This document shows positions 35,081 through 54,343 of a stretch of DNA of 64,000 bases, in pieces; positions within the stretch are counted from its first letter, which is position 1, and each line of letters opens with the position of its first letter. The notes beneath the pieces were generated by a model. It worked only from the letters and a program-made list of their open reading frames with translations. It was not told where the DNA came from and did no database searches. The position numbers and the translations under genes are program-made. Location of the stretch: NCBI RefSeq assembly GCF_000016185.1, contig NC_011420.2:124001-188000 (forward strand), read 5' to 3'. The stretch is from Rhodospirillum centenum SW. Lineage in GTDB: Bacteria; Pseudomonadota; Alphaproteobacteria; Azospirillales; Azospirillaceae.

Positions 35081-35395
35081 TCAGGGAGCGGCGATTTCCG
35101 GCTTGCCGCGCTGCGCCAGCAGCATGTTCACCGCCTCCACCATCAGCGCCTGGACGGAGGTGTCCTCGTCCAGCGCAAGCTGGCGCAGCAGCTTGCGTCC
35201 CTCCGGCGAGAGATGGACCGTGACCGGGGCGGTGCCGTTGCGGCTGGGGGGGGGCACGTACCGCCGCTCCTCCGGCGGATTGGCGGCGGCCGCCAGGGCG
35301 GCAGGATCAGGGCGTTTGGCTTCGGCGGCCTTCGGCACCGCCTTGGACCCCGCCGCCGCCTTCAGGGCCGCCCCGAGTGCTGGACGCTTCGCCAT
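35081..35395 (-). CDS. Ribbon-helix-helix DNA-binding protein (probable ParA partner)
   Basis: 104 residues. A basic, Ala/Pro-rich N-terminal half (about 1-52) is followed by a C-terminal ribbon-helix-helix (APVTVHLSPEGRKLLRQLA then DEDTSVQALMVEAVNMLL). This is the MetJ/Arc fold used by small centromere-binding proteins such as ParG and omega, and by antitoxins. The flexible positively charged tail in front of an RHH is typical of ParA-stimulating partners. The gene lies just after parA on the same strand. Tandem 8-bp repeats stand 47-78 bp upstream of its ATG, overlapping its likely promoter. Confidence 0.78.
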   Translation of the reverse strand: MAKRPALGAALKAAAGSKAVPKAAEAKRPDPAALAAAANPPEERRYVPPPSRNGTAPVTVHLSPEGRKLLRQLALDEDTSVQALMVEAVNMLLAQRGKPEIAAP

Positions 35396-35441
35396 CCTGT
35401 CCGTCTCCCTCCTGATTTCAGTCGGACGATCCTAGCAGCCC

Positions 35442-35473
35442 GCATGCCGGCGTGCCAGCATGGCAGCCTGCCA
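35442..35473. repeat. Array A: four tandem octamers between parA and the RHH gene
   Basis: Octamers GCATGCCG, GCGTGCCA, GCATGGCA and GCCTGCCA follow each other without spacers (consensus GCATGCCA). They include the dyad TGCCA-GCA-TGGCA at 35453-35465. A likely -10 of the RHH gene (TAGGAT on the minus strand, 35429-35434) lies beside it, with the -35 position inside the array. This is consistent with an autoregulatory operator and/or centromere-like site. Confidence 0.7.
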
Positions 35474-35524
35474 TCGGTCCATCCTTCCCGGTGGCCGCAC
35501 ACCGTCGGCCCTGTCCCGGTAGTG

Positions 35525-36154
35525 TCAGGCGGCGCCCAGCCGCTTCGCCACCCACTTCCGCAGCGCCTTCACCTCGGTCGCGGCCGTGCCCTCCGGCTCG
35601 AACTCCGTAACGCCCTGGCTGGCGATGGCGGCATAGCCGAAGGCGGCGCGGTTGCCGATGGTGACCGGCGCCGTCTCCAGCCCCAGTTCCTCCAGGGCGG
35701 TGCGGGCCTCCTGCACCTTGGGGCCGCGCACGGGTACGGCGTTCAGTACGGCGGTCGGCTGCTTCTTGGCGACGCCGATCATCTCCACCGTGTTCGCCAT
35801 GGCGCGCAGGTCGAAGATCTCCGGCCGCAGCGGCATCAGGATGAGGTCCGCCGCCTTGGCCGCGGCCAGGGCCGCCGCCTCGGAATGCGGGGCCGTGTCG
35901 ATGATGACGATGTCGGCCCGGTTGTCGCGCGCCGCCTGCAATACCGCCTGCAGTCTGCCATGCTGGCAGGACAGCACGGACAGTTCGTCCTCGTCCTCGC
36001 GCTGGTCGCTCCAGGCGGTGGCAGTCGCCTGCGGATCGAGGTCGAGGACGACCACGGTCTTGCGCGCCTCGCGGAACGCCACGGCCAGATTGAGGGCGAT
36101 CGTCGTCTTGCCCGTGCCGCCTTTGGTGCTGATGAGCGAAAGCACCTTCGTCAT
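35525..36154 (-). CDS. parA: ParA-family partition ATPase
   Basis: 209 residues from ATG 36154; the longer frame to 36289 runs through repeat sequence. The deviant Walker A is KGGTGKTT at 11-18 (SLISTKGGTGKTTIALNLA), then VVVLDLDPQATATAW (A') and IVIIDTAPHSEAAAL (Walker B), as in small type Ib ParA/Soj ATPases without an N-terminal HTH. LMPLRPEIFDLRAM follows. It would form ATP-dependent nonspecific DNA-bound gradients and be stimulated by a partner, here the RHH protein. Cargo unknown. It carries a copy of the TGCCA dyad inside its coding sequence. Confidence 0.88.
   Translation of the reverse strand: MTKVLSLISTKGGTGKTTIALNLAVAFREARKTVVVLDLDPQATATAWSDQREDEDELSVLSCQHGRLQAVLQAARDNRADIVIIDTAPHSEAAALAAAKAADLILMPLRPEIFDLRAMANTVEMIGVAKKQPTAVLNAVPVRGPKVQEARTALEELGLETAPVTIGNRAAFGYAAIASQGVTEFEPEGTAATEVKALRKWVAKRLGAA
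35956..35968. repeat. Third copy of the TGCCA dyad, inside parA
   Basis: TGCCATGCTGGCA is the exact reverse complement of the 13-bp dyad in array A. It falls in codons for CQHGR, so it may be chance, but it lies midway between the two arrays. Confidence 0.4.
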
Positions 36155-36186
36155 GGTCCCCCTCCCGCCGTCGCGGCAGCGTCGCG

Positions 36187-36246
36187 GCATGGCACCGGGC
36201 GCCCCGGGAGGCCACCATGCCAGCATGGCTTCATGCCACCCTGCCG
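36187..36246. repeat. Array B: tandem octamers upstream of parA
   Basis: Octamers CCATGCCA, GCATGGCT, TCATGCCA and CCCTGCCG lie in tandem at 36215-36246, and an isolated GCATGGCA at 36187-36194. The dyad TGCCA-GCA-TGGCT (36218-36230) differs by one base from that in array A. The array is 61-92 bp upstream of the parA ATG, where an operator would sit. Confidence 0.68.
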
Positions 36247-36403
36247 CCAGTGCTGCATCAGATGTACGGCCTGCCGCCGGTGGCCGCAAGCCTGAAAGCC
36301 TGAGCTATCCAGGGGCCGCCGGCCGGCCTATGCTCCCCCCGCCCGCCGGGATGGTCCCGGCCGGCCAGCCGATCCCGTCCCGCAACGCCGGCCGCTCCCG
36401 CCG

Positions 36404-47650: not shown

Positions 47651-48450
47651 CCGACGCCCCCGTAGCTGCGCACCAGGGCACCGGCGACCAGCAGCCAGCC
47701 GTCCACCATCACGAAGAAGATGATCTTGAACGGCAGCGAGATGATGACGGGCGGCAGCATCATCATGCCCATGGCCATCAGCACCGCAGCGATGATCATG
47801 TCGATCACCAGGAACGGCAGGAACAGCAGGAAGCCGATCTCGAAGGCGCGCCGCAGCTCGGAGATGACGAAGGCCGCGATCAGGGTGCGCAGGCCGGGGG
47901 CGCTGGCGGCCTCTTCCGTGGATGGCGCGGGACCCGCGGAACCGGCTGCCGGAGCCGCTCCGGACTTCGTTCCCGCCTCGAAGCTGCGGAACAGCTCCAG
48001 ATCCTTCGGCCGGACATGGGCCTGCATGAAGTCCCGGAACGGCTCGACGATGCGCTCGAACGCCTGCTCCTCGGTGATCTGGCCGTCCACCATGGGCTGC
48101 ACGCCCTCACGCCAGCTCCGGTCAAGGGTGGGGCCCATGACATAGGCGGTCAGCAGGAGCGCCAGACCCAGCAGCACCATGTTCGGCGGCGTCTGCTGCA
48201 GGCCGAGGGCGGAGCGCAGCAGCGACAGCACGACGACGATGCGGGTGAAGCTCGTCACCATCACCAGCAGGCCCGGCGCTACGGACAGGATGGTGACCAG
48301 GGCCACCACCTGCACCATGCGCCCCGCGAACGAGGCGTCGCCGGTCCCGCCCATGTCCATGCTGAAGCTCTGCGCCAGCGCCGGGGCGGCGGCGAGCAGG
48401 GTCGTCAGCAGGGCGGCGCCGGCCGCCAGCAGCGTCGCGCGGGCTTTCAC
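47647..48450 (-). CDS. fliP: Flagellar export gate protein FliP
   Basis: 267 residues. It has a cleavable signal peptide (AALLTTLLAAAPALA) and four TM segments, with the FliP signatures VVALVTILSVAPGLLVMVTSFTR (in parts) and SFTRIVVVLSLLRSALGLQQ, then PPNMVLLGLALLLT. The C-terminal half has SELRRAFEIGFLLFLPFLVID and MGMMMLPPVIISLPFK. It forms the FliPQR pore of the type III export gate. It overlaps both neighbours by 4 bp. No fliO is visible next to it. Confidence 0.97.
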   Translation of the reverse strand: MKARATLLAAGAALLTTLLAAAPALAQSFSMDMGGTGDASFAGRMVQVVALVTILSVAPGLLVMVTSFTRIVVVLSLLRSALGLQQTPPNMVLLGLALLLTAYVMGPTLDRSWREGVQPMVDGQITEEQAFERIVEPFRDFMQAHVRPKDLELFRSFEAGTKSGAAPAAGSAGPAPSTEEAASAPGLRTLIAAFVISELRRAFEIGFLLFLPFLVIDMIIAAVLMAMGMMMLPPVIISLPFKIIFFVMVDGWLLVAGALVRSYGGVG

Positions 48451-51369: not shown

Positions 51370-51855
51370 ATGTCGGAAAGCACTTTCGAGAGACTGACGA
51401 AAAAGGCCGATGAAGCGCAGGCGTCACGCCGTCGGCGGCTTCTGCTGGGAGCGGGCGCCGTTGTCGGCGCCGGCGTCCTCGGGCTTCTCGCCTCCGTCGG
51501 CAGCCGGGAGATCGGTCTCTGGACCGATGAGGCGCCTCCGCCGGCCCAGGCCGGCTGGTCCGCCTTCGTCAAGCTGCCGGACCTGACCGTCAATCTGCGA
51601 CCGACCTCAAAGGTCAAGCTGCTGAAGATCGGCGTCACCCTCCGTACCGCTCCCGACAAGGCGGCGGAGCTGGCGACGCTGGAACCCGTCCTGATCGACG
51701 GGATGCAGGACTACCTCCGCCAGCTCGACGAGCACGACCTGGAAGGCAATGCCGGCCTTGCCCGCCTGCGCGAAGGCCTGCTGCGGCGCAGCCGCCTGCT
51801 GGCCGCGCCGGTGCCGGTCGAGGACGTCCTGCTCAGAACCATGATCCTCCAGTAG
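51370..51855 (+). CDS. fliL: Flagellar basal body-associated protein FliL
   Basis: 161 residues. One N-terminal TM (LLLGAGAVVGAGVLGLLASV, about 23-43) is followed by a periplasmic stomatin-like domain with FVKLPDLTVNLRPTSKVKLL and a C-terminal PVPVEDVLLRTMILQ. FliL surrounds the stator and supports torque. fliM follows after 7 bp. It is divergent from fliF with a 179-bp control region. Confidence 0.93.
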   Translation: MSESTFERLTKKADEAQASRRRRLLLGAGAVVGAGVLGLLASVGSREIGLWTDEAPPPAQAGWSAFVKLPDLTVNLRPTSKVKLLKIGVTLRTAPDKAAELATLEPVLIDGMQDYLRQLDEHDLEGNAGLARLREGLLRRSRLLAAPVPVEDVLLRTMILQ

Positions 51856-54296: not shown

Positions 54297-54343
54297 GGGC
54301 GGACATGTGAGGGAACGCCACGCCGGTGACGGCAGTGGCGGGA

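Follow-up and report, generated by a model that had tools for sequence, protein, structure and literature searches.

The parA gene and the adjacent ribbon-helix-helix (RHH) protein-encoding gene found in the window, namely, the 64,000-nucleotide stretch of the Rhodospirillum centenum SW genome considered here (positions 124001-188000 of the single 4,355,543-bp contig that carries both genes), are proposed to make up a chromosome-borne partition module of plasmid type (type Ib-like), which would act on or mark chromosomal loci and also control its own expression. The probability of this reading is put at slightly above one-half, about 0.55.

The two genes share the same orientation, with parA being followed by the RHH gene (Table 1). 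When the ParA sequence was compared to profiles, it matched AAA_31 in Pfam (6.7e-20) and scored 176 bits against NF041546 (ParA_partition), slightly short of the cut-off of 180; its closest solved chains were ParA 5u1g and ParF 4dzz (E 1.2e-12). The RHH domain scored 71.8 bits against PF20605 (Antitox_RHH; cut-off 27.2). The basic N-terminal tail that the initial annotation had ascribed to the RHH protein was indeed present, and its start, of the (K/R)RPxL..ALK/MK type, is conserved among relatives. The start of parA was placed at the ATG at 36154 rather than at the TTG at 36289, because homologues begin at the former position. Were the ORF to start at 36289, array 2 would lie within parA.

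Table 1. Features of the parA/RHH locus, with positions given as those of the window.
Feature	Position	Strand	Description	Basis
RHH partner gene	35081..35395	-	104 aa; Ala/Pro-rich basic tail at residues ~1-50, C-terminal RHH domain at residues 52-101	
Array 1	35442..35473		four boxes in 8-bp phase between parA and the RHH gene, ahead of the latter	lag-8 test, PWM
Dyad TGCCAGCATGGCA	35453..35465		in array 1	alignment: also present between parA and the RHH gene in the 87% relative
parA	35525..36154	-	small Walker-type ATPase, 209 aa, deviant Walker A STKGGTGKTT	
Dyad reverse complement	35956..35968		inside parA	exact match; PWM 23.3
Array 2	36210..36246		four to five boxes in 8-bp phase, upstream of parA	lag-8 test, PWM

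The presence of an octamer array ahead of each of the two genes, also described in the initial annotation, was likewise confirmed. Array 1, found 47-78 bp ahead of the ATG of the RHH gene, comprises the boxes GCATGCCG GCGTGCCA GCATGGCA GCCTGCCA, while array 2, found 61-92 bp upstream of parA given a start at 36154, reads TGCCA gca TGGCT tca TGCCA ccc TGCCG between 36215 and 36246, with GGCCA in phase at 36210. When self-similarity was compared to that of Markov shuffles, a lag of 8 was significant for both array 1 (p = 0.002) and array 2 (p = 0.014). In the same test, no significance was obtained for either array at lags of 7 and 9. The arrays thus lie beyond chance, and TGSCANNNTGSCANNNTGSCA, from array 1, has a single exact match genome-wide. 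When a PWM was built from no sequences other than the eight octamers of arrays 1 and 2 and was scored as five in phase, the two arrays, themselves the training set, scored 37.0 and 41.3, respectively. At the same time, whereas the arrays are real and 8-bp spaced, the notion of a fixed octamer as the site unit did not stand. Rather, the octamers are degenerate and of mixed orientation, such that the term 8-bp phased TGSCA boxes (with a TGSCA box being either TGCCA or its reverse complement, TGGCA) fits better and was adopted instead.

As previously described, the dyad TGCCAGCATGGC(A/T) was found in the local arrays, and its exact reverse complement inside parA. In the 87% relative (G055, locus L020), the dyad survives between parA and the RHH gene as TGCCATGCTGGCA on the coding strand, with that array not being retained in full and the upstream array being eroded; alignment revealed no counterpart of the intragenic copy in this relative. 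The copy within parA is probably fortuitous and may represent coding sequence by chance. The exact dyad TGCCAGCATGGCA was also considered as a genome-wide site and rejected, given 225 matches at ≤2 mismatches, an excess probably due to GC-rich coding sequence; one copy, at 3,929,529, falls in what looks like coding sequence for an asparagine-synthetase-like protein.

The description of the module as partition-like was supported by its plasmid relatives. ParA shares up to 51.7% identity with plasmid ParAs of the NF041546 type, and in all 16 plasmid relatives examined parA is followed by an RHH gene, with several such pairs adjoining a replication initiator gene. When 30 flanking regions, drawn from the R. 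centenum locus and 20 relatives, were considered, a significant lag-8 repeat was detected in 21 and a significant repeat at lag 16, a multiple of 8, in 13, with each of the remaining lags between 5 and 20 being significant in 0-2 regions. No lag-8 repeat was seen in any of 21 parA-coding stretches or 40 random stretches. The sequences of the boxes vary between relatives, yet the 8-bp phase is constant. Arrays in 8-bp phase are, therefore, a trait of this ParA/RHH family, a point now tested rather than drawn by analogy with omega or ParG. Similar TTGCCAGCAA-type boxes were found on family plasmids of Agrobacterium, Ancylobacter, and Methylocystis. In addition, TGCC/GCAA-type boxes accompany RHH proteins whose beta-strand has T-V or T-T (those of R. 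centenum, G061, Methylocystis, and Agrobacterium), and other box types accompany RHH proteins whose strand has GGHF or AGHF, a pattern only suggestive of a possible specificity code linking beta-strand residues to box type.

A search of 385 genomes from the class detected PF20605 in 7, with the family otherwise being mostly plasmid-borne or found on small contigs. In a ParA tree, drawn with an arbitrary root and lacking support for the deep order, the two chromosomal ParAs pair (100/100). They fall among plasmid proteins, separate from a Sua5-linked chromosomal paralogue. The latter, a second small ParA (1679387-1680016, L002), adjoins a Sua5/YciO-like gene and has similar neighbors in G066 and G055 (L010, L015), with no adjacent RHH gene being seen.

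Arrays were next found far from the module, a result that bears directly on what the module moves, a question left by the initial annotation. A genome-wide search for TGCCN4 x4 (≤1 mismatch) returned three places in the 4.36-Mb genome, namely, array 1, array 2, and a third array at 220,234-220,273, 60 kb from the module. This array of five boxes (TGCCTTCA TGCCATGA TGCCCTTA TGCCATCA TGCCAGCA) is intergenic, lying between an epimerase gene, some 200 bp downstream, and a methyltransferase-like gene. Across the remaining 80 genomes of the order, the same search (≤1 mismatch) yielded 84 matches, or ~0.7 per 4.36 Mb, of which two were exact once microsatellites and the array of a sibling module were set aside. 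The PWM was applied to ~1.02 Mb of sequence, with the remaining genome being covered by pattern searches, and gave no score of ≥22 in 400 kb of R. centenum background or in 374 kb of background from the relative. By contrast, the distal arrays scored 41.3 (220,225-220,296), 34.6 (3,898,473-552), and 26.2 (3,897,159-220), although enrichment in the 3.87-3.95 Mb stretch, picked for its clustered pattern matches, is a biased test. The arrays at 3.897 and 3.898 Mb lie on either side of a gene encoding a 364-aa protein without a Pfam match, one between this gene and a glycosyltransferase gene, the other between this gene and a convergent gene.

The 3.897-Mb array, for which lag 8 alone gave p = 0.34, was rated only moderate, because matches in coding sequence also exceed a score of 25. 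Indeed, elsewhere the ~1.02-Mb survey returned isolated weak matches of 22-23.3 and two matches above 25 (3,880,404 and 3,920,249), both in coding sequence. Candidate arrays at 3,920,249 (in a glycosyltransferase-like gene), 3,880,404, and 3,929,320 were accordingly left out as coding or weak. At the first of these (3,920,249-3,920,320), the octamers CTGCCAGC ATGACAGC AAGACAGC ATACCACC are in 8-bp phase inside the coding sequence (PWM 30.3) and may be fortuitous or may mark a site within a gene, as is seen with SegB.

Examination of G055, the only close relative with the module, revealed that the syntenic distal locus carries a denser set of arrays. On contig C36, PWM matches were found at 48,314 and 48,410 in a convergent gap, at 49,852-995 in a divergent gap, at 51,381-517 downstream of a glycosyltransferase gene, and at 54,320. 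A simpler box count gave five clusters in 3.2 kb vs. two in 374 kb, and this only at period 8, with the locus having been reached via a single pattern match at 51,478, such that enrichment there is a biased test. The distal loci of the two species, located by different patterns in different genomes, turned out to be orthologous. This outcome, like the lack of arrays in the RHH-less control described below, did not follow from the way in which the loci were chosen. In both, the arrays adjoin the gene for the 364-aa protein (76% identity between the two), the glycosyltransferase gene, and the gene convergent with the former; array positions are common to both species at this one distal locus only. 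Beside the G055 arrays (C36, 51507-54329), a seemingly DUF1403-like gene and a resolvase-like gene hint at a small mobile insertion. The expectation that the octamers be kept in relatives with parA and the RHH gene was thus borne out in part. Near parA in G055, where the local arrays are reduced to the one dyad, lag 8 was not significant and no PWM match of ≥22 was obtained, whereas strong arrays of the same octamers exist elsewhere in that genome.

No arrays were detected at the same locus in G067, in which the 364-aa protein gene (71% identity) lies beside the same type of glycosyltransferase gene and no RHH gene was detected, nor at 17 further loci of the 364-aa protein family, nor, using the PWM, at the same distal locus in three relatives with no RHH gene detected. 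At the level of sequence, then, the distal arrays co-occur with the RHH gene, being found only in the two module-bearing genomes among those compared. The 364-aa protein was considered as a third component of the module, yet this is unlikely, given that 51 of the 81 genomes examined in the order have a member of the family and that most of these lack the module.

In the mechanism proposed, in which RHH binding of the arrays, ATPase stimulation, and DNA movement are all predicted steps, RHH dimers would sit next to one another on the 8-bp phased TGSCA boxes. On the arrays upstream of parA and the RHH gene, bound RHH would both repress the module and form a partition complex, such that these arrays likely serve as operator and centromere. 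The same protein would bind the distal arrays at 220.23 kb, at 3,898.48 kb, and probably at 3,897.17 kb. ParA-ATP on the nucleoid would then bind the RHH-coated arrays, presumably stimulated by the basic N-terminal tail, with the array loci thereby being tethered, moved, or kept apart. The presence of four to five boxes per array agrees with pSM19035, where at least four contiguous RHH boxes are needed for ParA activation (PMC9499535).

The position of the arrays also raises another explanation, albeit one that seems unlikely, in which RHH represses its own genes and a small cell-surface regulon, ParA serves as modulator or co-repressor, and no DNA is moved. RHH partition proteins double as repressors, and such a role would account for arrays upstream of both parA and the RHH gene, for the 220-kb array lying ahead of the epimerase gene, and for the further distal arrays that adjoin glycosyltransferase genes near polysaccharide-type genes. 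Still, pure promoter control is disfavored, because some distal arrays, namely, those in the convergent gap by the 364-aa protein gene in both species, lie between the ends of converging genes, a setting in which a promoter is neither expected nor evident. Nor is a promoter evident at the arrays downstream of the glycosyltransferase gene in the relative, and simple repression needs no dedicated, highly conserved ParA.

Conservation of the module was considered in R. centenum and the relative, the only two species available that carry it on the chromosome. Protein identity between R. centenum and the relative is 87 and 83% for the module and 73-74% for neighboring genes, with parA and the RHH gene being better conserved than are the flanking sigma-54 activator gene and its small neighbor. 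Simple Nei-Gojobori counts gave omega values of 0.145 for parA and 0.158 for the RHH gene. The module is under purifying selection. The same sigma-54 activator gene is found near the module in the second species, where ~1.4 kb of other DNA intervenes. No integrase, relaxase, or replication genes were found among the Pfam-scanned neighbors, and the idea of an integrated element was accordingly dropped. Native plasmids have been reported as absent from R. centenum SW (PMC2890560). With the module lying on a single 4.36-Mb contig and the scanned neighbors including no plasmid genes, plasmid carriage does not apply, and the module is therefore a chromosomal variant related to the NF041546 ParA and PF20605 plasmid family. 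The simplest history would be one in which a plasmid-type module gave rise to the chromosomal one, the direction being unproved.

These findings speak against the suggestion, raised in the initial annotation, of the centromere of a captured plasmid, at least as a passive remnant. A plasmid module that is a relic or is passively carried, with arrays that had served a lost plasmid and distal arrays that are copies or chance, is in keeping with the mostly plasmid or small-contig location of the family and with the erosion of the local arrays in the relative. This reading is, however, quite improbable in light of omega values of ~0.15, conservation above that of neighboring genes, synteny in two species, the lack of plasmid genes among scanned neighbors, and distal arrays that score well over background and are confined to the two module-bearing genomes among those compared. 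Least credible is an anti-plasmid (incompatibility) device, in which chromosomal arrays together with RHH and ParA disturb the partition of incoming plasmids with the same boxes, as the similar boxes on the Agrobacterium, Ancylobacter, and Methylocystis family plasmids might suggest, yet which does not require one particular syntenic locus.

A chromosomal partition module of this sort can be compared to known systems. Like the type Ib delta/omega system of pSM19035, it combines a small ParA, an RHH partner, and contiguous short boxes; in pSM19035, 7-bp boxes overlap the promoters of parA, the RHH gene, and copS (PMC9499535), whereas here the boxes are of 8 bp, are chromosomal, and include extra arrays tens to hundreds of kb away. 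With TP228 ParFG/parH, the module shares the order of parA and then the RHH gene, as well as an RHH protein with a flexible N-terminal tail, and ParF of TP228 is one of the two solved structures that match ParA best. TP228 is, however, plasmid-borne, its ParG sites have AT-rich regions between them (PMC5016525), and the RHH protein considered here matches PF20605. The NF041546 ParA and PF20605 plasmid modules of Alphaproteobacteria and Cyanobacteria offer related ParA and RHH proteins, the same gene order, and 8-bp arrays, yet differ from the chromosomal module with its distal arrays. Chromosome-encoded ParMs provide a precedent for plasmid segregation systems with a chromosomal location (PMC12270681). 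In SegAB of the Sulfolobales, a chromosomal ParA and RHH pair, sites are found upstream of the pair and scattered over the chromosome, with 46-49 13-bp palindromes, mostly intragenic, having been mapped for SegB (PMC12284271). SegAB thus resembles the present module in terms of its chromosomal ParA and RHH pair and may do so in terms of off-locus sites, the latter being candidates read from sequence in the present case, a likeness in mode of action rather than a family assignment. It differs in that the module considered here is bacterial and has few, mostly intergenic tandem arrays, with boxes distinct from the TCTAGA-type 13-bp palindrome.

Canonical ParABS, in turn, relies on an HTH/CTPase ParB and TGTTTCACGTGAAACA parS, whereas here the partner is an RHH protein and no parS is found at the locus. 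Exact canonical parS sites were found at 2.8907 and 2.8940 Mb, and the arrays are ~1.0 and 1.6 Mb away; the module is, therefore, not the main chromosome centromere. Sampled counts of an FtsK-like motif change strand near 2.85 Mb, consistent with an origin there. Also in sampled counts, the strand bias of GGGNAGGG between 0.14-0.52 and 0.7-1.1 Mb changes sign more times than a single origin and terminus would account for, as though several hundred kb had undergone inversion. In addition, the 21-mer TGGCACCGTGGCCGGTTCGCA was found on either strand at seven places (1063746, 1604973, 2490865, 2871222, 3159311, 3352328, and 3707634) and is presumably an insertion sequence or other repeat.

A more specific proposal, held tentatively and at somewhat less than even odds, is that the module provides a second, RHH-type chromosomal centromere system, independent of ParABS and derived from a plasmid module, in which RHH would mark the 3.897-3.898 Mb region and other sites, and ParA would position or segregate them, representing a bacterial counterpart of SegAB. 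A literature search that covered few subscription journals yielded no description of distal arrays for a ParA/RHH system on a bacterial chromosome. If true, the capture of a partition system by a chromosome from a plasmid would be testable in a genetically amenable organism in which candidate sites are already mapped, and an RHH/ParA pair working on a bacterial chromosome would parallel archaeal SegAB.
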